A stretch of 25,762 bases of DNA from a virus: positions 1 through 25,762 of IMG/VR virus record IMGVR_UViG_3300009553_000082; one strand, given 5' to 3'. Position numbers and translations under genes: made by a program. Below the pieces are notes generated by a model. It saw only the letters and a program-made list of their open reading frames with translations. It did no database searches and was not told where the DNA came from. Positions 1,344-25,762 of this stretch are shown here, piece after piece (within the stretch, counting starts at the first letter, position 1; every line of letters starts with the position of its first letter).

Positions 1344-1485
1344 TCTCATCTACACCATCCAATGGTATGCATACTACTACAAGACCGAAGTCACATTGCT
1401 GTTGCTTGTGTACATGCTACCAATCATCGTCACCATTGTGGGAGTGAAGAGGTGGATAAGAAACCGATACCTGCACATGTCATAG
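1330..1485 (+). CDS. Small single-span membrane protein (51 aa)
   Basis: 51 residues, beginning MIDNDLIYTI. A hydrophobic stretch at about residues 19-39 (VTLLLLVYMLPIIVTIVG) is long enough for one membrane helix and is followed by a basic tail (KRWIRNR), predicting a cytoplasmic C-terminus. It overlaps the previous gene by 14 bases and the HNH gene by 34 bases. The ribosome binding site is weak (GAAAG around 1317-1321). The upstream in-frame ATG at 1258 would bury the start deep in the preceding gene and is less likely. It may be a small phage inner-membrane protein; no family is recognised. The long overlap with the next gene keeps confidence moderate. Confidence 0.5.
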   Translation: MIDNDLIYTIQWYAYYYKTEVTLLLLVYMLPIIVTIVGVKRWIRNRYLHMS

Positions 1486-2129
1486 AGCAACGTGCTAAGC
1501 AGAAACTACAACGCACCAAACCTCTGCGCGGCCGTCGTACACGTGGTGAAGACTACGACGTCTTTCGTCGCATCAACATGCACGATGGCAGTAAGGAACT
1601 ATGTTGGGAATGGCTTGGCGCACATGGCAAAGGCACACGTGAAGAGTACCGCCCGCGTGTCGTATTAGGCCGCACACACTACTACGTCTATCGCGTCGTC
1701 TTCGAACTTTATACAGGGTATAAGCTACAAAAGGGCGACGTCATTCGTCACTCATGCGACCACTCATGGTGCTGCAATCCTCACCACATAACCGTCGGTC
1801 GTCAGGCTGACAACGTACGTGACATGCTTGAACGTGAACGCGTAGGCATGAAGCACTTCCATGTCAAACGCATCATGCAGATGCTTGAGCTTGGTTGCAC
1901 CGCTGAGTTCGTAGCAGAGAAGATGCGCGAAGGTTACAACATGTCACTCGACGTTAGTGTGATACGCAAGATCCGACTACGTAAGGTGTACAAACACATC
2001 GCGTGGCCTTGGGGTGATGAGTACGCTGCACAACGACGCACACGTCTCAACGACCTCAAAAACAGCCGACTTGCAGGTGATCCTGCATGTGCTATAATAC
2101 ATAATCACACAAGCAAAGGAGACACGTGA
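1452..2129 (+). CDS. HNH endonuclease (HNH_3-like, possible homing endonuclease)
   Basis: 225 residues from a GTG start at 1452, preceded by GGAG at 1441-1444. A longer ATG start at 1362 would lie fully inside the membrane-protein gene and adds a Cys/His-rich stretch unlike the rest. The HNH core spans about residues 50-130: CWEWLG, then HxC at 100-102, CCNPHH at 107-112 and N121 of QADNVRDM. This order (H, C..CNP.H, N) is that of phage HNH endonucleases using a beta-beta-alpha-metal site to nick or cut DNA. Residues about 137-180 resemble a helix-turn-helix DNA-binding tail. Its stop overlaps the next start (TGATG), and a sigma70-type promoter for downstream genes lies in its 3' end. A palindrome copy lies inside it. 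Confidence 0.8.
   Translation: MDKKPIPAHVIEQRAKQKLQRTKPLRGRRTRGEDYDVFRRINMHDGSKELCWEWLGAHGKGTREEYRPRVVLGRTHYYVYRVVFELYTGYKLQKGDVIRHSCDHSWCCNPHHITVGRQADNVRDMLERERVGMKHFHVKRIMQMLELGCTAEFVAEKMREGYNMSLDVSVIRKIRLRKVYKHIAWPWGDEYAAQRRTRLNDLKNSRLAGDPACAIIHNHTSKGDT
1709..1723. repeat. Dispersed palindrome, copy 3 (one mismatch)
   Basis: TTATACAGGGTATAA, one mismatch in the right arm. It lies inside the HNH gene and is read as Y-T-G-Y. Confidence 0.65.
2071..2098 (+). promoter_or_regulatory. Sigma70-type promoter inside the end of the HNH gene
   Basis: TTGCAG (2071-2076), 16-bp spacer, TATAAT (2093-2098, a perfect -10 box). It lies 31 bases before the next ATG. The sequence from -35 to -10 matches another promoter at 5276-5303 in two 11-base blocks (TTGCAGGTGAT and CATGTGCTATA), so the two are related. 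The operator-like palindrome that overlaps the -10 of the other promoter is not intact here. Confidence 0.65.
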
Positions 2130-3524: not shown

Positions 3525-4607
3525 GTGATCATACGTCCTACCACAGACACCACGATCCCGTGGGTAGACTACTCCACCCTAACAGCCGTGAACACATGCC
3601 CACGTTGGGGGATCATCAACTCTTGGCATGGTAAGCGTTTATCTGCTGGTGTCGAACGTGTACTAGCTCTCGAAGCTGGTCGCGCGATGCATGACGTCTT
3701 TGCAGCTTGTCGCTTCTTTGATCTTATACACAGTATAATGAACGACAAGAACGATGATGGAGGCAGGCTAGATGCTATCTACAAATATGCTGACCGTGTA
3801 TTCGCCAATGCACTACATCCTGATCGCTGGTCGCAGGCGCTCGCTTACTATCGTAGTAACGAAGACGCCGAAACTCGTTGCATGCAGATGGCTCTCAATC
3901 TCCTCGAAACATCAGGTTATCACGACGACCCCCGTGATGCACGTAGAACGCAGGCTAACCTTGAGAGTGCAGCTATCAACTATGTCCAACGCTATCCACT
4001 TGGTCGCTTCATACCAATCTGTAACTCCGACGCATCACGCATCGGCATAGAGATGCCATTCGACATCACACTACACAACAACAACCACGCTCCACTCATT
4101 CGCTTCATCGGCCGTGTTGATGCTGTGTGTGTAGACACACTACGTCCTAGCGACAAGACGCCTGAAGTACATGAGAACAAAACTGGCTCGCGCATCGACA
4201 CTGTATGGTCCAACTCCTTCGACACATCCAACCAAGTCACCGGCTACTGCGTCGCTATGTCATGCCTACTCGACATGCCTATACGCAACGTCGTCATGTG
4301 GGGTCTACAACTCCCTGTGCCTAAGTCATCCACATACAGCGACGGAATGATGCGCTACCCTACCTCACGCAACGAAGAAAGCTTCCACGAGTGGCAGTCA
4401 TGGGTCCGCCATTCGCTCGATGTTATCCATGCATACGAAGACGCACCTACAGACGCACCTATGTACACACACTCATGCAACCGTTACTTCCGCTCATGCT
4501 CGTTCATACCTCTATGCAGTGAGACATCAGAGCAACGCCGTCACATATACGACAACGAAATGACAACCGAACGCTGGTCGCCTCTAATGGAGACACTTGA
4601 TCCATGA
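3525..4607 (+). CDS. PD-(D/E)XK nuclease, RecB/Cas4-like with candidate Fe-S cysteines
   Basis: 360 residues from GTG 3525, which has AGAGG at 3513-3517. The upstream ATG at 3480 lies inside the preceding gene. The nuclease motifs are in order: H56 (AGRAMH), D199 (GRVDA), E217 and K219 (HENKT) and Q237/Y241 (QVTGY), the RecB-family active-site set. One cysteine near the N-terminus (C25, NTCPRW) and three near the C-terminus (C318, C325, C331) match the 1+3 layout of the Fe-S cluster clamp in Cas4 and AddB nucleases. It most likely resects or processes DNA ends for recombination or replication, beside the Sak4-like ATPase downstream. The stop overlaps the next start (ATGA). A palindrome copy is inside. 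Confidence 0.85.
   Translation: MIIRPTTDTTIPWVDYSTLTAVNTCPRWGIINSWHGKRLSAGVERVLALEAGRAMHDVFAACRFFDLIHSIMNDKNDDGGRLDAIYKYADRVFANALHPDRWSQALAYYRSNEDAETRCMQMALNLLETSGYHDDPRDARRTQANLESAAINYVQRYPLGRFIPICNSDASRIGIEMPFDITLHNNNHAPLIRFIGRVDAVCVDTLRPSDKTPEVHENKTGSRIDTVWSNSFDTSNQVTGYCVAMSCLLDMPIRNVVMWGLQLPVPKSSTYSDGMMRYPTSRNEESFHEWQSWVRHSLDVIHAYEDAPTDAPMYTHSCNRYFRSCSFIPLCSETSEQRRHIYDNEMTTERWSPLMETLDP
3724..3738. repeat. Dispersed palindrome, copy 6 (one mismatch)
   Basis: TTATACACAGTATAA, one mismatch next to the centre. It lies inside the nuclease gene and is read as I-H-S-I. Confidence 0.65.
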
Positions 4608-4804
4608 CTACAACAGACATCGTGAAACAGGCGCGCGACTATGCACGCAATCTAGGTGGGCCGCCAGAAGACTATTTGACATGGCAGCTTGCAGACGAGA
4701 TCGAGCGATTGCGCGCTGTTATTACGCGAGCAAAGGACGCCCTCCTTGACGGACAATCGACGCAACGGGTTCACGACCTATTGGTGAGTGCCCTCCATGA
4801 ATGA
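4604..4804 (+). CDS. Small protein of the DIV..DEIERLR type (66 aa)
   Basis: 66 residues beginning MTTTDIVKQARDYA. It contains ADEIERLR at about residues 30-37, the same motif that is repeated in the next gene, and both proteins open with a DIV-type N-terminus, so the two look like paralogues. Small proteins of this type are common accessory genes in phages of Proteobacteria; their function is unknown. Start ATG 4604 overlaps the nuclease stop by four bases. The base composition is richer in GC than the flanking genes, and no palindrome copy lies in it. Confidence 0.7.
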   Translation: MTTTDIVKQARDYARNLGGPPEDYLTWQLADEIERLRAVITRAKDALLDGQSTQRVHDLLVSALHE

Positions 4805-5162
4805 CATCGTAGAGCGGCTGCGCGGGTATGAAAATCCCGAACTGCGCGAGGCCGCCGACGAGATCGAGCGGCTGGAGAAAGTAATCGCTCTTATGATCCC
4901 TGAACGCAATCGAGATATTAACGAGATAGAGCGACTGCGCAACACGATCAAGAACTGCCCGCCAGTCTCCGAAAGCGAATACGTGCGCCGACTGGAGGAC
5001 GAGATCGAGCGGCTGCGGGAGGAGGTTCGCGTCGGTGCTGAGTTGATAGCAGAGGCGAATGGTGAGATCGAGCGGATCAACGCTGCTCGACATGCCGATA
5101 GTCAGCGCATGGTGCGGATGTCGGACGAGTACGAGGCGGCGCAGAACGAGATCGAGCGGCTG
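4697..5162 (+). repeat. Six copies of a 15-base EIERL-coding unit
   Basis: Variants of GAGATCGAGCGGCTG begin at 4697, 4860, 4923, 5001, 5064 and 5148, the first in the 4604 gene and the rest in the 4797 gene. All are in frame and encode EIER followed by L or I. In the second protein the spacings are 21, 26, 21 and 28 residues, three of them multiples of seven, as expected for a coiled coil. The near-identical codons suggest recent internal duplication. Confidence 0.7.
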
Positions 5163-5264
5163 CGTGAGGCGTTGAAGATCATCGCCGGTCGGCAGCAGTG
5201 CCTCGATAACTTGATGAGCAATGTAGATGTGGCCTGTGCAGCGTTGGATGGAGGTAAACCATAA
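4797..5264 (+). CDS. EIER-repeat coiled-coil protein (155 aa)
   Basis: 155 residues from ATG 4797, overlapping the previous gene by 8 bases; a GTG at 4788 is an alternative. The N-terminus (MNDIVERLRGYENPELREA) and the five EIER units at residues 22, 43, 69, 90 and 118 make an almost continuous charged coiled coil. Proteins with the DIVERLR...AADEIERL pattern are frequent, poorly characterised phage accessory proteins. GC content and codon choice (gcggctgcg) differ from the surrounding AC-rich genes, which points to separate acquisition of this two-gene block. No catalytic motif is visible. Confidence 0.75.
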   Translation: MNDIVERLRGYENPELREAADEIERLEKVIALMIPERNRDINEIERLRNTIKNCPPVSESEYVRRLEDEIERLREEVRVGAELIAEANGEIERINAARHADSQRMVRMSDEYEAAQNEIERLREALKIIAGRQQCLDNLMSNVDVACAALDGGKP

Positions 5265-5275
5265 CTGACGATGAG

Positions 5276-5303
5276 TTGCAGGTGATTACACATGTGCTAT
5301 ACT
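5276..5303 (+). promoter_or_regulatory. Sigma70-type promoter upstream of the Sak4-like gene
   Basis: TTGCAG (5276-5281), 16-bp spacer, TATACT (5298-5303). Between -35 and -10 it is almost the same as the promoter at 2071-2098. The -10 box is embedded in a palindrome copy at 5297-5311, so a protein bound there would block RNA polymerase. The start codon is 23 bases downstream of the -10 box. Confidence 0.65.
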
Positions 5304-5311
5304 ATGTATAA
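5297..5311. repeat. Dispersed palindrome, copy 7 (two mismatches), over a -10 box
   Basis: CTATACTATGTATAA, two mismatches in the 13-bp core. It fully covers the -10 box TATACT of the 5276-5303 promoter, the clearest operator-like placement in the window. Confidence 0.6.
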
Positions 5312-5326
5312 CATCAGGAAGGGGAG

Positions 5327-6106
5327 ATGATGGAATTAAAGATAGAACATCCAACAGACGCACCATCGCGCTTATCTATGATCCTGTGGGGTGATAGTGG
5401 TAGCGGCAAAACTACACTCGCTGCAACCGCTCCCGGTCGCAAGCTATTCCTCATGCTTGACCCTGATGGTGACATGAGTATTCGCAACATGCCCAATTGG
5501 CACCGTGTTAATCTGAGTAAAGAAAGTAGTGTGGACATCGTTAAGGAGGGAATGAAGCCTGACCCTTATACACTGTATAGCATGCTCGCTGACTTCGACA
5601 CCTTGATCATCGATAGCCTGACCAAGTTCAGTGAACATGCTCTTCAGTATGCAGTACGCGTTGCTCCCAAGAGTACAATCGAGCAACCCGGCCTCAATGG
5701 GTATGGTCTTCGTAACATAGCAGTGTCGTCGCTCATCTCCAACACCTTGCGTGTCACAGGTGCCTTGAACAAACACGTGATCTTCATTACGCATGAGAAG
5801 GATGCTGATCGAAACAACGATGGTGCCATCCTCAGCGTCGGGATGTTGCTTGGCGGGCAGCTTCCTAACATCGCTAGCAAGGACATCTCTGAAGTATGGA
5901 ACATTCGTGATGTCAATGGGGTCAGACATATCGCCATCCGTCCTGAACGTTTCCGTGCGCCGATGAAGTCACGCATGTTCGACATGACTGCACAGACGTC
6001 ATTCCCTCTACGCTACAACGCAAACACCAATGCTGGTCCTGCCATATCCACGTGGTGGCAGGACTACATCGCTGGCAACTTCGCAAAGTTACCAGTGCCT
6101 AAGTAG
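5327..6106 (+). CDS. Sak4-like RecA-fold ATPase (phage recombination)
   Basis: 259 residues. Walker A is GDSGSGKTT (residues 22-30), Walker B is TLIIDS (D96), and VIFITHE (H156) is the sensor-like strand. This set, the short length and the lack of any other domain fit the AAA_24/Sak4 family, single-domain RecA-like proteins thought to promote single-strand annealing together with a phage SSB. The next gene encodes a candidate ssDNA-binding protein and a RecB-like nuclease lies upstream, which supports that reading. Two ATG codons overlap at 5327 and 5330 behind AGGAAGGGGAG; 5327 is used here. Expression probably starts from the adjacent promoter and may be controlled by the palindrome over it. 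Confidence 0.85.
   Translation: MMELKIEHPTDAPSRLSMILWGDSGSGKTTLAATAPGRKLFLMLDPDGDMSIRNMPNWHRVNLSKESSVDIVKEGMKPDPYTLYSMLADFDTLIIDSLTKFSEHALQYAVRVAPKSTIEQPGLNGYGLRNIAVSSLISNTLRVTGALNKHVIFITHEKDADRNNDGAILSVGMLLGGQLPNIASKDISEVWNIRDVNGVRHIAIRPERFRAPMKSRMFDMTAQTSFPLRYNANTNAGPAISTWWQDYIAGNFAKLPVPK
5566..5580. repeat. Dispersed palindrome, copy 8 (exact core)
   Basis: TTATACACTGTATAG, exact core at 5567-5579, inside the Sak4-like gene, read as Y-T-L-Y. It lies about 260 bases downstream of copy 7. Confidence 0.85.
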
Positions 6107-7146: not shown

Positions 7147-8496
7147 ATGGACGCGATGCAGCTAGATGCTGAACAGCAGAACGCTATTACTATGTGTGTC
7201 GATCCTCTCAAGCGCCTCGTCTCTGTGACAGGTGAAGCTGGTACGGGTAAGACTACTATTATAAAGCAGACGTGTGACTTACTCACACAACGCAACATCC
7301 CATTCGCACTCGCCGCACCAACAGGTAAAGCCGCCCGTCGTATACGTGAAGCAACAGGCTATCCTGCTCAAACCATACACAAACTCCTTGAGTTCAATCG
7401 CCCTGACATGGACGATGAAACAGGTGAAGCTACATCTGTCAGCACACCAGCACGCGGCAAGTCCAACCCACTTGAACAACACATCGTCATCGTTGATGAG
7501 TATGCAATGGTGTCCACTGGCCTACATCGTGATCTCGTCTCATCACTACGCCACGGTGCATGCTTGCGTGTGTTCGGTGACATTCGCCAACTCCCACCTA
7601 TTGAGAACGCTGACCTCGCAGACCCCACATCCCCCTTTGCGAAGTGTCTCGCCATGCCTAACACTGTCACACTCAACAACATCTACCGCCAAGCTGAAGG
7701 CAATGGCATCATCGAAGCAGCACGTCGCATCAACCGCGGTCAGTTCTTCACAGGCAACAGCGACGTGCGTGTGATGCTTGGCGATGCTGTGCTTCATACA
7801 CTGTATAAGATGCTAGAAGACAACGACATCGATTGGCGTACAATCAACAATCAAATCATCTCGCCCGCGCGTAAGTCAGACATAGGCACTGTGCGTTTGA
7901 ACAGCATCCTCCAACTACGCTTCAACCCCACCATGCCCGGTAAGATCGAACTCCCTCGCAACAAGTGGGAGGTGAAGAACAGATGCTTCGTCAGCATAGG
8001 TGACAAGGTTGTCTGCAACACCAACTCGTACGACTTACGTGACTACACCGAACGTTACACCGACTTCGCTAACGATGGTACAGGCTACGCACATGCGTAC
8101 ATCCCTGCACCTGATACGAAGCAGATGTTGAATGGTGAAGTCGGTGTCATCAGAAGCATCGACCCTATCGGTGTGTTGGAGATTGACTTCGGTGATCGCG
8201 TTGTCGAACTACCACCCAAGGTGCATGAGTACAACAGACGTAGGCAGTTCTTCTACACCTACGATCCACGTCGCGTGATTGAGTTGGCCTATGCTCTCAC
8301 CACGCACAAGTGTCAAGGCTCGCAGTATGACAACATCTCCTACATCATGGCATCATGCGCGTTCTTCAATCTCTCACGTCCCAACCTATACACCGGCCTC
8401 ACACGTGCGATCAAACATGCGACGTTGATAACAGACCAACGCTCACTCGCTACATCGTTGAAGTCACTCGGTTGGAAGAGGAAGCCTAAGTCATGA
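7147..8496 (+). CDS. SF1 DNA helicase, RecD/Dda-like
   Basis: 449 residues. Motif I GEAGTGKTT (residues 29-37), motif Ia APTGKAARR (57-65), motif II VDEY (D117, E118), motif III GDIRQLPPIE (144-153), and in the C-terminal third a THKCQGSQYD motif and YTGLTRA (motif VI) with arginine finger. This is the RecD2/Dda type of superfamily 1B 5'-3' helicases with a UvrD_C_2-type end. It probably unwinds DNA at the phage fork or in recombination; the polymerase is encoded just downstream. No primase or replicative DnaB-type helicase is seen in the window. Start ATG 7147 has GGAG at 7135-7138. Its stop overlaps the next start (ATGATGA). Confidence 0.9.
   Translation: MDAMQLDAEQQNAITMCVDPLKRLVSVTGEAGTGKTTIIKQTCDLLTQRNIPFALAAPTGKAARRIREATGYPAQTIHKLLEFNRPDMDDETGEATSVSTPARGKSNPLEQHIVIVDEYAMVSTGLHRDLVSSLRHGACLRVFGDIRQLPPIENADLADPTSPFAKCLAMPNTVTLNNIYRQAEGNGIIEAARRINRGQFFTGNSDVRVMLGDAVLHTLYKMLEDNDIDWRTINNQIISPARKSDIGTVRLNSILQLRFNPTMPGKIELPRNKWEVKNRCFVSIGDKVVCNTNSYDLRDYTERYTDFANDGTGYAHAYIPAPDTKQMLNGEVGVIRSIDPIGVLEIDFGDRVVELPPKVHEYNRRRQFFYTYDPRRVIELAYALTTHKCQGSQYDNISYIMASCAFFNLSRPNLYTGLTRAIKHATLITDQRSLATSLKSLGWKRKPKS
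7794..7808. repeat. Dispersed palindrome, copy 11 (one mismatch)
   Basis: TCATACACTGTATAA, one mismatch in the left arm. It lies inside the helicase gene and is read as H-T-L-Y. Confidence 0.65.
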
Positions 8497-8657
8497 TGAC
8501 AAACACAGAGATCGTACAACTCGCTGAATGGATTAAGAAGCTGCGTTGGGTATCAATTGACAAAGACAACATGGAGTTCACTGTAGACACTACATGCTAT
8601 GTCAAAGATGCACTTAACAAGTGGGCCGACAGTGTGTTGAAGGGGGACAACGAATGA
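8493..8657 (+). CDS. Small hypothetical protein (54 aa) between helicase and polymerase
   Basis: 54 residues, MMTNTEIVQLAEWIKKLRWV at the start and KWADSVLKGDNE at the end. It starts within the helicase stop (ATGATGA), has AGAGG at 8477-8481, and overlaps the polymerase start by four bases (ATGA), so it is a coupled gene filling what would otherwise be a 157-base gap. Too short for family assignment; it is acidic and helical with three Trp residues. It might be a small polymerase or helicase partner, which is only a guess from position. Confidence 0.6.
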   Translation: MMTNTEIVQLAEWIKKLRWVSIDKDNMEFTVDTTCYVKDALNKWADSVLKGDNE

Positions 8658-11191
8658 CACTAACAACAGCAGAACTTAAAGAACGCTTCTCACTTCAGGC
8701 TAGTGCGGCGGGGCTTGTCGTTGAGTGCTCTATGGGTGGTACTCTCCACTCGACCATCGCTGTCATAGCTGAAGCTCCGGGTCGCAACGAGGTCGCTCAA
8801 GGCATCCCGCTTGTAGGCGGTGCAGGAAACATACTCTGGCGTGCCATCCGCACTCATTGTCCAGAGGTGAAGCGTCATGAGTGTTACATCACCAACGTCG
8901 TCAAGCGTCAGGTTGCGTTCGATGTTAACGAGGGTGCGAACCGTAAGCCGGTAGGGAAACATGAGCTATCCGCTTGGCAGGAGTTGCTGAAGTGGGAGCT
9001 TGAACACCTGCCTAACTTACAACATGTCTTACTCCTTGGCAACTACGCCGTTGAAGCCTTGCTAGGTAAGAAGGGCATAACGTCGTGGCGCGGCAGTGTT
9101 ATACCGTGTATAGTAGGCAATCGTCAGATCACTGCGATTTGCACCTACAACCCAGCCTTTTGCGCGCGTGATCCTATGGCACACATCATGTTCGACATGG
9201 ACATAGGTGACAAACTTCGCCCTGTTGTACTCGGAACCTTCAAACCCCATGCAGTCGTCACACATATCAACCCCACCTGTAAGCAAGCACTCGATTATAT
9301 TGCTATGTGTAAAGCCTCACGTGATCCAATCGCATCTGACATCGAAGTCATCGCTAATGAAACAGCTTGCGTCGGCCTTGCTCCTACAACGCATGAAGCA
9401 ATGTGCATCGCCTTCCGCAACGAAGAACGCAACGTCTACCAACACCACGAAGAAACTGCCATTCGTCTCGCCTTACAGTCGCTCTATGCTGCGCCGACTA
9501 CACGCATGGTGTGGCAGAATGGAGGCTTCGACATGTCATGGCTCTGGTTTAAGGATCGCATTCGCTGTCGGCCTGCCTATAGTGACACGATGCTGGGTCA
9601 TCATGTGCTATACCCAACAATGCCGCACGATCTTGGCTTCATCGTCAAACAATACACAATGCATCCGTTCTATAAGAATGAGAAGGACGAATGGCGCCAT
9701 ACTGGGGGTGTTGATAATTTCTGGATATACAACGGTAAAGACTGCGCTCTCACACTTGCAGCGAACCGTGGCATCATATCAGAACTCCGCGATCAGAAGC
9801 TAGACAAGTTCTACTTCGAGCACGTCATGCGTTTGCAACATCACCTTGTGTGGATGACAGTCGGTGGAGTGTTGAATGACATGGAACTACGTCGTCGTAT
9901 GCTGGACGAGAACACACCCGGTAACTTGTACAGTGATCTGCAATCTAAACTACACGAGTTCTACGTTGCGGCAAGAGACGCTGTGGGTGATAACACCTAC
10001 ACGCCCAACCCCAATTCTCCTAAGCAAATGGCTGAACTCTACTTCAGCAAGCTCAAGCTCGTCGGGCGTGGTGTGAGTACCGACGCTACCAATCGCGAAC
10101 TCATGCGCAAACATCCACGCACATCCCCTGCCGCTCGCCGTGTGCTCGACGCCGTAGACGCATACATCGAGGACGACAAGTTCTACTCTGTCTACGCATC
10201 AGCCAAGCCTGACTACGACAGCCGGATGCGGTGTGACTACAGACAGACGGGGGTGCGTTCTGCTCCGGGTAGGTTGTCGTCTGCTCAAACGCTGTGGGGT
10301 TCGGGAGGAAACTTGCAAAACATCCCAGACCGCGCGAAGGAAATGTTCATTGCTGACCCTGGCTGCTGCTTCATTTACATCGACGGCAGTCAGGCCGAGG
10401 CTCGAGTAGTGGGGTGGAGGTACAACATCACGTCGTGGATGAAGCAGTTTGAACGGGCGCGCATTGACGGTTCCTACGACTGCCACCGCGCTCTTGCCAG
10501 TGACATGTTCGACGTACCGTACAACGATGTTCCTACCTTCGACCGCTACCCATTGGATCAAGTCGCCGCGTTGCGTGATGGCATCGCATACAACGTCGAG
10601 TTGGCTGGCAAACCAACCATTCGTTTTGTTGCTAAACGTTGCCGTCATGGTCTCAACTACCGTATGATGCCTGATCGCTTAGCCCTTACTACAGGCTTAT
10701 CCCTAAGTACAGCAAGCGAAGCGTTTGTCAAGTACCACAAGCTCACACCTGAGTTAAAGAAAGGTTGGGAAGCGGACCTCAAACGTGTGCGAGAAGATCG
10801 TGCAATCTACAACGCCTATGGTCGCCGTTATGTTCAACTCATACCCGCCACGGATGAGAGCACCGAAGCAATCGTCGCGTTCTATCCGCAGTCAACGATA
10901 GGTGATCACGTGTGTAGGGTGATATACAAAGCACACGATGACCCAGCATGGCCCAAAGGCAAGGCACGCATCGCGCTCAACACACATGACGGATTGATAG
11001 GCATCGCGCGTCATGAGGTAGCGAAGCAAGCACTACGCGTCATGGTCAAACACGCAGAGACACCTATCCTCATAGGTGGTAAGCAACTCATCATCCCTGC
11101 TGAGTGTGCGATGTCTGTGCCTGACGCCAATGGCATACACCGCTGGTCAACGATCAAGAAGATGAAACGCTCAGAGCTATACAGTGTATAA
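8654..11191 (+). CDS. Uracil-DNA-glycosylase-like domain fused to DNA polymerase I (exonuclease plus polymerase)
   Basis: 845 residues from ATG 8654 (AGGGGGA seven bases upstream). Residues about 32-180 resemble family 4 uracil-DNA glycosylases: AEAPGRNE (39-46), GIPLVGGAGN (50-59), YITNVVK (78-84) and TYNPA (164-168). The family's usual Fe-S cysteines after VVK and near position 107 are R85 and W108, and the usual His of the HPA motif is N166. The 3'-5' exonuclease has D229/E231, D293 and Y359/D363. Polymerase motif A is DGSQAEAR (D577), motif B has R657 and K661, and motif C is HDG (H778, D779, G780) instead of HDE. It is the likely replicative polymerase. No 5'-3' exonuclease domain is present. 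The last codons contain a palindrome copy. Confidence 0.92.
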   Translation: MTLTTAELKERFSLQASAAGLVVECSMGGTLHSTIAVIAEAPGRNEVAQGIPLVGGAGNILWRAIRTHCPEVKRHECYITNVVKRQVAFDVNEGANRKPVGKHELSAWQELLKWELEHLPNLQHVLLLGNYAVEALLGKKGITSWRGSVIPCIVGNRQITAICTYNPAFCARDPMAHIMFDMDIGDKLRPVVLGTFKPHAVVTHINPTCKQALDYIAMCKASRDPIASDIEVIANETACVGLAPTTHEAMCIAFRNEERNVYQHHEETAIRLALQSLYAAPTTRMVWQNGGFDMSWLWFKDRIRCRPAYSDTMLGHHVLYPTMPHDLGFIVKQYTMHPFYKNEKDEWRHTGGVDNFWIYNGKDCALTLAANRGIISELRDQKLDKFYFEHVMRLQHHLVWMTVGGVLNDMELRRRMLDENTPGNLYSDLQSKLHEFYVAARDAVGDNTYTPNPNSPKQMAELYFSKLKLVGRGVSTDATNRELMRKHPRTSPAARRVLDAVDAYIEDDKFYSVYASAKPDYDSRMRCDYRQTGVRSAPGRLSSAQTLWGSGGNLQNIPDRAKEMFIADPGCCFIYIDGSQAEARVVGWRYNITSWMKQFERARIDGSYDCHRALASDMFDVPYNDVPTFDRYPLDQVAALRDGIAYNVELAGKPTIRFVAKRCRHGLNYRMMPDRLALTTGLSLSTASEAFVKYHKLTPELKKGWEADLKRVREDRAIYNAYGRRYVQLIPATDESTEAIVAFYPQSTIGDHVCRVIYKAHDDPAWPKGKARIALNTHDGLIGIARHEVAKQALRVMVKHAETPILIGGKQLIIPAECAMSVPDANGIHRWSTIKKMKRSELYSV
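9099..9113. repeat. Dispersed palindrome, copy 12 (one mismatch)
   Basis: TTATACCGTGTATAG, one mismatch beside the centre. It lies in the glycosylase-like part of the polymerase gene and is read as I-P-C-I. Confidence 0.65.
11177..11191. repeat. Dispersed palindrome, copy 13 (exact core), at the convergent junction
   Basis: CTATACAGTGTATAA, exact core at 11178-11190. Its last three bases are the polymerase stop codon. The stop of the opposite-strand gene is three bases further, so this site is the only visible element between the two converging modules. Confidence 0.85.
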
Positions 11192-22442: not shown

Positions 22443-23899
22443 CTCTTTTTCGCTGGTGGCTTATCAGGTGTGCGGCCCTCAAGCACAGCAAGCCTCGCAC
22501 GTACTGCTTTCAACTCCTGCAACAACACAGGGACATACTTACTATAGTCCACATAGTGTCGATCTTCTTTCTCATCATAGGTCACAGGTGTAGCGTAGAC
22601 TTCTTTAGCTTGCTGACCGAGCACACCATATGCACGCTCGCCAGTTGCCTTCCACTTGAAGTCATACACCTCAGTGTCATCAATGATATTACCTGCATCA
22701 AACGATTTCAGGTCTTCTTTCAGGTTTGCGTCTGACGATGTGTTGAACGAGCACGCTGTTGCTGTGGTAGAGATGTTGCCAGTAGATACGCCACTACGAC
22801 GGCAATCCATAAGTCCACCATCAACGTTGCGATTAGAGAAAATCGGTGCATTACCACTGGCAATGCTGACTGTAAAATATCCAGTACCGATTTCAGTTCC
22901 TACAGTAGTATTACCAACACCGGGGTATGTCCCAATAGCAGTTCCAAGGCCGATAGCACTACTGTGAATGTTACCAGCAACACCCAAACCACCAGCTACA
23001 GTCAATGCGCCTGTTGTAGGTGAGGTGGAAGGTAAGGTCCCTTGTAGAACTACAGCGCCCGTCGAACGAACGATTGCCAGTGGCATATCAATATATGCCC
23101 CTGCATCATTGTAGCGAAAAATACCAAAATTAGAGACAGTTGGATCAGCACCACGAATTGTCCATTTTCTCAAGCCAGCGGCATCATAGTGGATATCTGT
23201 ATTTTGAGATGCATTAGACATAACCACGCCTGTCAGCGTCGTAGCACCAGTTGCACGGCTGATTGTCAGTGGTGTTGCCTTTGCTACACCCGCATCTGTA
23301 TCACTGCGAATGCTAAAGTTAGACCCCGCATCGCTGCCTGTCTCTGCAGTACTATCTCCTAAGAATAGCTCCCAACGAACTAAACCACCCTTCATCCCCT
23401 GTATAAGAGGCGATCCTGTGCCAGCACCAGCTTGAATTATTAGATTACCATAGGCGTTGGCAATTGTCGTTTGACCTATTGTAACATAGCCAGTTGCGCG
23501 GTCAATTTTTAGTGCCGCCTCGATGATATTGCCTGCATCATCATATCTATCAATCTGAAAACCTGATCCAACATTTCCACCGCTTTCTGCAAGGCCATTT
23601 GCTAAATTAATCCGCCAACGAGTAAGTCCACCCGTCTTACTGAATATCTCTGCTGGACTGCCAACAGGTCTATCTAATATCACGTTGGGCTTTGTTTTGC
23701 TGATCGTCAAATCACCACTCATAGTGTCGCCAGCTTTAGCAACCTTCAACGCATCCTGCGCATCTACATACGCATTCGTCGCAAGCGCAGTCGTACTTCC
23801 TCCTTTAATAGTCCACCCTGTGCCATTGTACACATACGTCATTCCACCTGACGTGTACTCTTGACCTACAGTAGGTGAAGCAGGGAAGTCGATTGCCAT
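22439..23899 (-). CDS. Tail fibre / spike protein with C-terminal S74 chaperone domain
   Basis: 486 residues from ATG 23899, chosen over the GTG at 23902 because GGGAGGAAG precedes it. The N-terminus (DFPASPTVGQEYTSGG) resembles phage tail-fibre anchors. The body has beta-rich repeats with LTVAGGLGVAGNI. The last 98 residues form an S74 intramolecular chaperone: S389 and K394 in SDANLK fit the autocleavage dyad (Ser-x4-Lys) of the K1F endosialidase type, followed by DFKWK, AYGVLGQQA and a C-terminal coiled coil. The chaperone helps the trimer fold and is then cut off. It binds the host surface; the receptor is unknown. It overlaps the first fibre gene by one base, and is its paralogue. Confidence 0.85.
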   Translation of the reverse strand: MAIDFPASPTVGQEYTSGGMTYVYNGTGWTIKGGSTTALATNAYVDAQDALKVAKAGDTMSGDLTISKTKPNVILDRPVGSPAEIFSKTGGLTRWRINLANGLAESGGNVGSGFQIDRYDDAGNIIEAALKIDRATGYVTIGQTTIANAYGNLIIQAGAGTGSPLIQGMKGGLVRWELFLGDSTAETGSDAGSNFSIRSDTDAGVAKATPLTISRATGATTLTGVVMSNASQNTDIHYDAAGLRKWTIRGADPTVSNFGIFRYNDAGAYIDMPLAIVRSTGAVVLQGTLPSTSPTTGALTVAGGLGVAGNIHSSAIGLGTAIGTYPGVGNTTVGTEIGTGYFTVSIASGNAPIFSNRNVDGGLMDCRRSGVSTGNISTTATACSFNTSSDANLKEDLKSFDAGNIIDDTEVYDFKWKATGERAYGVLGQQAKEVYATPVTYDEKEDRHYVDYSKYVPVLLQELKAVRARLAVLEGRTPDKPPAKKR

Positions 23900-25762
23900 C
23901 ACTTCCTCCCACGTGGTGCAGTGGTGACAACAGGCTTATCAAGTGTGCGACCTTCAAGGTCTGCAACACGTTGTCTCAATGCTTTCAGCTCTTGCAACAA
24001 CACGGGGACGTACTTTGAGTAGTCAACACCCCACCACTCATCTCTCTCAGCACCCTTCTCGGTCGATGCCTCTGTATGTGTGACTGCGAGCGGATATACA
24101 TCAACAGCCTGCTGAGCGATGACACCAAATGCGCGCTCTTTAGTAGACTTCCATGCGAAGTCATACACATTCGTGTTGTCTATGATGCTGCCTGCGTCGA
24201 ATGATTTGAGGTCTTCTTTAAGCTCTGCTCCTGAGGAGGTGTTGTAGGCAGCACTTGCGCCGTCTGATGTTATTGTTCCTACTGTCGCACCATTGGCTAC
24301 TTTCATATAAAGCATATAACGAGTGCCAGACGGATTAAAATTCTGTGCAACATAACATGCGCCTGTGCTGGGAGCTGGATTGCGCATATATGAAAATACA
24401 GTATCACCTGCGCTGTCGCAGGTAATGCTGCTAGCGTTAATATTCCCACCAACACCCAAACCACCAGATACAACCAACGCACCTGTTGTTGGTGAGTTGG
24501 AAGGAAGGGCGTTCTGAACACGGACAACTTGATCAGTTGTAATAGCAAGTGTCGGAACTGGTGATCCGCTTAAACCAGTACGTAGCCAGAAGTGACCCAG
24601 TAAATCAATTCCCATTCCACACCAATTGTTGCCACCTCCATCATACAGCAACAAGTTTGCATCAGCTTGTGCGACTGCCGCGTTGAATGCCGCGCCATTG
24701 GGATTGCCGAGTACATTAGATTTGGCAAATGATCTGATTGTACCAGTAGCATTAATCCCACCACCAACACCTAATCCTCCTGCAACAGTCAATGCGCCTG
24801 TTGTAGGTGTTGTTGAAGCGGTCGTGTTTAACACCTGAACTGTTGAAGGTGCATTAAAGCTGATAAGGTTGGGTGTACCCACGCCAAAACCTATATCACC
24901 ATTTGTGCGATTGATTACAACTGCACTATCGACGAAAACACCTGCTGCGTCGTATCGTTGTAGATGAAATGCTTCGTTCGCTCCTCCATCACCGACTACT
25001 ACACGCCACATCGTTCGCGATCCAGAACGCCCGTAAAGGCCGCCTGCTGTTACTGTTGTCTTGTCGAGGAATATAGAAGGCGCAAGTTTGTTAATCGACA
25101 AATCACCAGTCATCGTGTCGCCAGTCTTCAACACAGCATTCTGGTTGATACTAGCTGCAGCTCCTCCCGCTTGTACCCACTGCGACGTATTGCCGTCATC
25201 GTAGTAGACCCAGAAGATGCCGCTATCACTCTCCCACCACATGTCTCCATCTTTAGGATTGCTCGGTGGATTGTCAGCAGTTGTAGTTGTGCTAGTACCA
25301 AGCGGACCAGCATCGTCCCACTGCGTACCATCCCAGATGTACAGATGCTGATTGTCGGTAGCGATCCACATGTCACCTATAGTGTTACCTGTAGGTGGCA
25401 GTGCTCCTGCGCTAGGCACCGTGCCTTTGATAACAAGTGGCGGTCCAAGCTCACCCTGTATACCTTGCGGACCTATAGCACCTCGCGAGCCAGATACGTC
25501 GATGATCCAGTCAACGAACGTCCCTGCGCCGCCTGATGTGATTGCGTTGATGACAAGTGACGTACCACTGTACGACGACACCTGTCCCCACATCCAATTG
25601 TTAATGGGGTCTAAGTTGGCACGCACCATGATGAACTTGCCAACGTTGAAGTACTTGTTCGCTTGTGTGACGAACGTCTTCGCAGTCAGCCCGATTGTGT
25701 TCGATGATGTAGATGTACCGAACAGCTTCGCAGCTTGTGCAGCACTTTCAACCGCGCTCGCC
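23899..25762 (-). CDS. Tail fibre protein with collagen-like part and S74 chaperone domain (start outside the window)
   Basis: At least 620 residues; the frame runs open past the right edge and the sequence before the internal Met (25629), reading AKLFGTSTSSNTIGLTAKTF, is clearly still a tail-fibre part, so the start is outside. A collagen-like GSRGAIGPQGIQGELGPP segment follows, then a WIATDNQHLYIWDGTQW-type binding repeat, PTTGALTVAGGLGVGG repeats, and an S74 chaperone at the C-terminus with SGAELK (Ser-x4-Lys dyad) and AFGVIAQQA. It probably anchors to the tail through its missing N-terminus and binds host cells. It is a paralogue of the following gene, most similar at the C-terminus. Confidence 0.85.
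   Translation of the reverse strand, partial: ASAVESAAQAAKLFGTSTSSNTIGLTAKTFVTQANKYFNVGKFIMVRANLDPINNWMWGQVSSYSGTSLVINAITSGGAGTFVDWIIDVSGSRGAIGPQGIQGELGPPLVIKGTVPSAGALPPTGNTIGDMWIATDNQHLYIWDGTQWDDAGPLGTSTTTTADNPPSNPKDGDMWWESDSGIFWVYYDDGNTSQWVQAGGAAASINQNAVLKTGDTMTGDLSINKLAPSIFLDKTTVTAGGLYGRSGSRTMWRVVVGDGGANEAFHLQRYDAAGVFVDSAVVINRTNGDIGFGVGTPNLISFNAPSTVQVLNTTASTTPTTGALTVAGGLGVGGGINATGTIRSFAKSNVLGNPNGAAFNAAVAQADANLLLYDGGGNNWCGMGIDLLGHFWLRTGLSGSPVPTLAITTDQVVRVQNALPSNSPTTGALVVSGGLGVGGNINASSITCDSAGDTVFSYMRNPAPSTGACYVAQNFNPSGTRYMLYMKVANGATVGTITSDGASAAYNTSSGAELKEDLKSFDAGSIIDNTNVYDFAWKSTKERAFGVIAQQAVDVYPLAVTHTEASTEKGAERDEWWGVDYSKYVPVLLQELKALRQRVADLEGRTLDKPVVTTAPRGRK

Follow-up and report, generated by a model that had tools for sequence, protein, structure and literature searches.

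The gene under study in the window (the whole stretch of 25,762 nucleotides that was analysed) runs from an ATG at 8654 to the end of the open reading frame at 11191 on the forward strand, to which all coordinates of this gene refer, and encodes a protein of 845 amino acids. By sequence inspection, a Shine-Dalgarno-like AAGGGGGAC for this gene is located at 8640–8648 on the same strand. Pfam searches of the protein matched a uracil-DNA glycosylase (UDG) domain, then DNA_pol_A_exo1, and then DNA_pol_A. The UDG-like domain, assigned by PF03167, the AF2 model, and Foldseek matches to UdgX and UDGa, covers residues 1–193 (8654–9232); its end at about residue 193 in the model is slightly beyond the position of 9193 given in the first-pass annotation. 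It is followed by a 3′–5′ exonuclease domain (PF01612; 9278–9763), in which D229, E231, D293, Y359, and D363 are invariant in the alignment, and by a family A polymerase domain (PF00476; 9929–11188), in which D577, K661, Y669, and D779 are invariant. The encoded enzyme is a proofreading family A DNA polymerase and is presumably the replicase of the phage. Because phrog_17 (phage DNA polymerase) spans residues 33–803 as a single match, the UDG part is a member of an already clustered polymerase family. Polymerase motif C reads HDG (residues 778–780; 10985–10993), compared with HDE in bacterial Pol I, and because it is HDA, HDS, or HDQ in the relatives, the second carboxylate is commonly missing in these phage PolA proteins.

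Upstream of the polymerase, a RecD/Dda-like helicase (7147–8496) and a Sak4-like ATPase (5327–6106) are encoded. The window also contains an HNH endonuclease, possibly a homing endonuclease (1362–2129, forward strand), a GNAT acetyltransferase gene amid structural genes (21377–21928, reverse strand), and two adjoining tail-fibre-like proteins, each with a C-terminal Peptidase_S74 chaperone domain (22439–25629, reverse strand). A genome-contig search for a host link returned three distant matches, namely L269 (39% identity, from a bin labelled "uncultured bacterium") and two that were weaker, from a Cloacimonadota MAG and a Thermoplasmatota MAG, and none of them indicates a host.

The first-pass annotation had described the N-terminal domain as a family 4 UDG layout fused to a polymerase, and our results bear this out. 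Residues 31–174 matched PF03167 with 62 bits (E = 7e-17; curated cut-off 24.3). The AF2 pLDDT was 92.6 for the domain and 84.4 for the full protein (pTM 0.77), with alignments made of the window and related loci only. Compared with UDGa structures, the predicted model has the alpha/beta fold of the UDG superfamily and not a different fold. The top Foldseek ranks of the model were UdgX and UDGa (E = 3e-13 to 3e-10); rank 38 was 9QHS, "phiLo family-A DNA polymerase with modified template" (E = 9e-7), and rank 40 was TDG. In sequence searches, the PDB matches of the domain were UdgX and family 4 UDGs, and a profile of the fused domains matched the UDGa entries 4ZBX (2e-42) and 1UI0 (2e-40) and the polymerase 9QHS (5e-12). 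TIGR00758 (UDG_fam4) scored 73.1 bits with query residues 1–200 and 69 bits with the whole protein, under its cut-off of 125.3 bits. TIGR03914, which tests for UdgX, scored 50 bits against a cut-off of 190.

UdgX of M. smegmatis was the best match in both Foldseek and single-sequence phmmer, but its GEQPG motif and the nucleophile of its KRRIH R-loop are absent from the window. Membership in UdgX was ruled out because A41 replaces the Gln of GEQPG and the R-loop His (nucleophile His109) has no equivalent; a UdgX-like cross-linker was ruled out by the same missing nucleophile. Family 2 (Mug/TDG), which has GINPG with a catalytic Asn, was also rejected, since motif 1 is AEAPG and TDG appeared only at Foldseek rank 40. 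The fold, the motif 1 Glu, the pocket Glu and Asn, and the backbone Arg are common to the window and UDGa (1UI0, 1VK2, and 4ZBX). However, UDGa is a free-standing protein that binds [4Fe-4S] and relies on its motif 2 His, whereas the domain in the window is fused, lacks the cluster ligands, and carries Asn.

Residue equivalences were expressed in the Tth UDGa numbering of Xia et al. 2017 (PMC5387724), and the Cys positions were set by alignment with a free-standing phage family 4 UDG and with cluster-bearing phage fusions. Xia et al. showed that the pocket of Tth UDGa consists of E41, G42, E47, F54, N80, and H155, that N89 positions the water, that N80 makes bidentate hydrogen bonds to uracil N3 and O4, and that E47 lines the pocket (PMC5387724). 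The corresponding pocket set in the window is E40, A41, E46, L53, N81, and N166. The UDGa motif 1, GE(A/G)PG, is represented by AEAPG (residues 39–43; 8768–8782), the pocket E47 by E46 (8789–8791), and the uracil-recognising N80 of the TN motif by N81 (8894–8896). R172 (9167–9169), which is conserved, is the counterpart of UdgX R184, a residue that touches DNA phosphates (PMC10359453).

The 104 sequences examined (window included) lack the four [4Fe-4S] cysteines of UDGa. In the window, R85 (8906–8908; K84-R85 at 8903–8908) replaces Cys 3, W108 (8975–8977) replaces Cys 4, and motif 2 is NPA (residues 166–168; 9149–9157) in place of HPA or HPS, with N166 (9149–9151) at the position of H155. These three substitutions had been reported in the first-pass annotation, with exact numbers, and the alignment places R85 and W108 at Cys 3 and Cys 4. 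Three other changes were absent from it. The N-terminal CxxC (Cys 1 and Cys 2) is also missing; the motif 3 Asn (Tth UDGa N89) has no conserved counterpart, with an entropy of 3.1 bits at N96; and L53 (8810–8812) takes the position of the uracil-stacking Phe54, whose F54A mutation costs Tth UDGa 17-fold in k2/Km.

Scans of IMG/VR yielded many fused relatives, and after the removal of identical copies, the window's group comprised 104 distinct sequences including the window, mostly from soil-derived phage contigs. Group members in the alignment shared 38 to 78% identity with the window over the UDG-like domain. G43, E46, and K84 were found in all 104 sequences and E40, N81, and N166 in 103; position 41 was Ala or Gly in all, and position 53 was Leu in 62, Phe in 38, and Met in 4. 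Position 85 was Arg in 96 and Lys in 8, position 108 was always Trp or Tyr, and CxxC occurred in 0/104. Since N166 is present in 103/104 and the R/K85-W/Y108 pair in 104/104, the substitutions are not sequencing noise. Alternative Fe-S ligands were also looked for and ruled out, as no Cys column exceeded 64/104.

The mean entropy of E40, G43, E46, N81, and N166 was 0.07 bits, compared with 1.69 bits over all 165 positions (p = 2e-5, position resampling; about 63 effective sequences). These five sites were chosen after the counts had been seen, so the fairer value is the one obtained when the variable A41 and L53 are added to give seven pocket sites (mean entropy 0.36 bits, p = 1.7e-4, position resampling). 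Among 16 close members, mean identity was 75% for the UDG, 80% for the exonuclease, and 84% for the polymerase domain, and pairwise dN/dS was about 0.10, 0.11, and 0.07, respectively, values that are rough because dS is near saturation. The UDG-like domain is under purifying selection, and its substitutions are fixed throughout the group.

The suggestion in the first-pass annotation that the fusion itself is unusual did not hold, because many phage PolA proteins carry a UDG domain. The fusion is already known from SPO1 gp31 and from the Thermus phage phiLo polymerase in the PDB (9QHS), and Foldseek against predicted viral proteins found the domain in the PolA of SP-15, EFLK1, HCMJ, Motura, and Rhizobium phage RHph_Y65, among many others. 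The protein in the window, with its phrog_17 match and a UDG fold directly before the exonuclease and polymerase, is one of these fusions. In the literature searched, we found no paper on the phiLo polymerase structure or on what UDG domains do in phage polymerases, and neither UDG nor glycosylase is named in "DNA polymerase swapping in Caudoviricetes" (PMC11348598). What is new here, as read from the aligned sequences, is the fixed set of substitutions (Asn for His, R/K85-W/Y108 for Cys) together with an apparently maintained pocket.

The phiLo polymerase (phiLo_158, AYJ74010.1; assigned to 9QHS by name), which matches the domain by both fold and profile, has the same N-terminal UDG, then exonuclease, then family A polymerase. 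It keeps CxxC, the third Cys, a Cys adjoining the fourth position, GEAPG, PF, TN, and HPS, whereas the window has R85, W108, L53, and N166. Bacillus phage SPO1 gp31 has the same domain order and likewise lacks the cluster Cys, but it keeps the motif 2 His and motif 3 Asn with QENP as motif 1 and Ser at the N81 position, the reverse of the combination in the window; its gene has an annotated intron with a homing endonuclease. The polymerase of Microcystis phage Mel-JY34 and its IMG/VR relatives share the fusion and the cluster loss with the window. They mostly keep F, N, and HPS/HPA, and their Cys 3 and Cys 4 positions are mostly V/I/T and G, not R and W.

In two Mel-JY34-like loci (L093:718–3377 and L099:3001–5660), the break in the polymerase gene falls between query residues 213 and 221, precisely where the UDG part meets the exonuclease, and the UDG and exonuclease-polymerase parts occupy separate frames about 315 nt apart. 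If splicing does not join the reads and the split does not come from misassembly, the UDG module can exist as an independent ORF next to the polymerase. Insertions of about 260–860 nt lie at nearly one place in the polymerase domain (query residue about 550–600) of L095 (near 4674–4936), L101 (near 4725–5588), and L276 (near 4312–5120). They had no Rfam match and are possibly introns or similar elements.

In a tree of the exonuclease and polymerase domains (71 rows, quick method, unrooted), the 50 representatives of the window's group formed a single clade with a support of 100, with Asn in motif 2 of all but one, which has Ser. A single switch from His to Asn that was then kept is sufficient to explain this pattern. 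Fusions other than those of the window's group have kept the cluster, have kept only the His, or have decayed. The cluster cysteines, F, N, and H are all kept in phiLo, vir526, and ctfzr933, and the cysteines and H in L102. The motif 2 His was lost in several Mel-JY34-like fusions, which have P in L085, A in L081, P in L086 and L089, and N in L087, and the UDG domain is badly eroded in L103, Zuko, and Emalyn. These patterns are most naturally read as an ancestral UDGa-polymerase fusion from which the cluster and His were lost repeatedly, with specific new residues fixed only in the window's clade; the deep placement is unsure because of long branches (phiLo, vir526, and a Desulfofustis phage).

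Twenty related records (37–49 kb, possibly incomplete) were searched, and control genomes did match in the same searches. Thymidylate synthase (ThyA/ThyX, also covering dUMP hydroxymethylase homologues; PF00303 and PF02511), dUTPase (PF00692), a second UDG, and AP endonuclease of family PF03372 (Exo_endo_phos) each gave 0/20. Genes for thymine or uracil replacement in the phage were rejected on these counts (PF00303, PF02511, and PF00692). The earlier idea that the domain could let the phage repair uracil likewise found no genomic support. The absences are weak evidence that these phages have neither genes for uracil- or hmU-DNA nor an excision pathway of their own.

Our preferred reading, which we judge about evenly balanced between right and wrong, is that the domain has no cluster and is catalytically crippled but can still bind a base, and that it serves the replicase, to which it is tethered, as a uracil reader. 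This family 4-type UDG domain has lost its [4Fe-4S] ligands and its leaving-group-stabilising His but has kept most of the uracil pocket and the backbone Arg. We infer that catalysis is lost or very slow and that the pocket may still accept a flipped uracil-like base, and the tether would let the domain scan the template near the polymerase. Uracil or a related base in the single-stranded template would then be recognised without excision, or with extremely slow excision, and the polymerase would be held or stalled at the lesion, or the template positioned, instead of the base being removed. Base removal would otherwise put an abasic site into the strand under copy. The R/K85-W/Y108 pair, which replaces two cluster ligands, may fill the structural role of the cluster.

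In published work, H155S in Tth UDGa lowers k2 from 2.3e-1 to 7.2e-5 per s (more than 3000-fold) with little change in Km (PMC5387724). This collapse of k2 without a rise in Km is a published ground to expect binding without cutting, and uracil binding without catalysis would fit both this mutant and the near-invariant pocket. Against a uracil reader, Leu takes the place of the stacking Phe in the window, and E40, E46, and N81 may be conserved for folding and not for base binding. In addition, a motif 2 Asn is also found in active Mug-type glycosylases, so N166 is no proof of lost catalysis.

The main rival, which we regard as possible although somewhat unlikely, is that the UDG fold is a structural or general DNA-binding module replacing the 5′ nuclease domain of bacterial Pol I, with base recognition lost and the pocket kept for stability. 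A role of this kind must exist in the eroded branches, where the domain is retained despite losses in motif 1, N81, and the motif 2 His (L086, L089, L087, L101, L103, Zuko, and Emalyn); L086, L089, L103, and Emalyn have lost most of the pocket and yet kept the domain, so that it acts as a scaffold at least there. The missing His in several Mel-JY34-like branches, the Leu at the stacking position in the window, and the variable motif 3 position agree with it. However, in the window's group E40, E46, N81, and N166, and less strongly R172, have been retained across deep divergence, which is not so in the branches that are decaying. Simple decay was ruled out for the window's group by its near-invariant pocket and accepted for several sister branches.

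We consider it distinctly improbable that the domain is an active cluster-free glycosylase, in which the motif 2 Asn (as in Mug) and the pocket allow uracil or some other base to be excised slowly, in a process linked to replication or repair. The pocket residues are indeed conserved, and TDG, whose related fold was found by structure match, acts without a motif 2 His. Cluster loss need not end activity, since the cluster-free Mel-JY34-like fusions retain His, Phe, and both Asn. However, the H155S mutation in family 4 drops k2 by more than three orders of magnitude, and no water-positioning residue is conserved, motif 1 having A/G and motif 3 being variable. The lack of a PF03372 AP endonuclease in the 20 relatives also argues against excision, though the host or another family could provide one. 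That the pocket reads base modifications in the template DNA of the phage itself and aids the copying of hypermodified DNA is highly improbable: the polymerases of SPO1 and SP-15, phages with modified DNA, have UDG-like domains and the 9QHS title names a modified template, but PF00303 and PF02511 homologues are absent from the 20 relatives and the uracil-recognition residues N81 and E46 are retained.

Archaeal family B polymerases carry a uracil read-ahead pocket, and the logic of the proposed uracil reader would resemble it, by means of a different domain. In its broadest form, which we put forward tentatively and think unlikely, a widespread clade of mostly soil-derived phages would have made a base-excision enzyme into a cluster-free reader built into the replicase, with an Arg-Trp pair in place of the cluster, as an independent counterpart of the archaeal pocket.

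UDG-like domains are present on the family A polymerases of very different phages, some of which have modified DNA. The window's group is informative because the features specific to catalysis are replaced and fixed while those specific to binding are near invariant. Together with the other fusions, it forms a natural series of cluster plus His (phiLo and vir526), His alone (Mel-JY34-like), Asn (window's group), and ruined pocket (L086 and L103), which is suited to testing excision against reading against scaffolding. The role of UDG domains on phage polymerases is thus directly testable with natural proteins, and we believe that it merits specialist attention.
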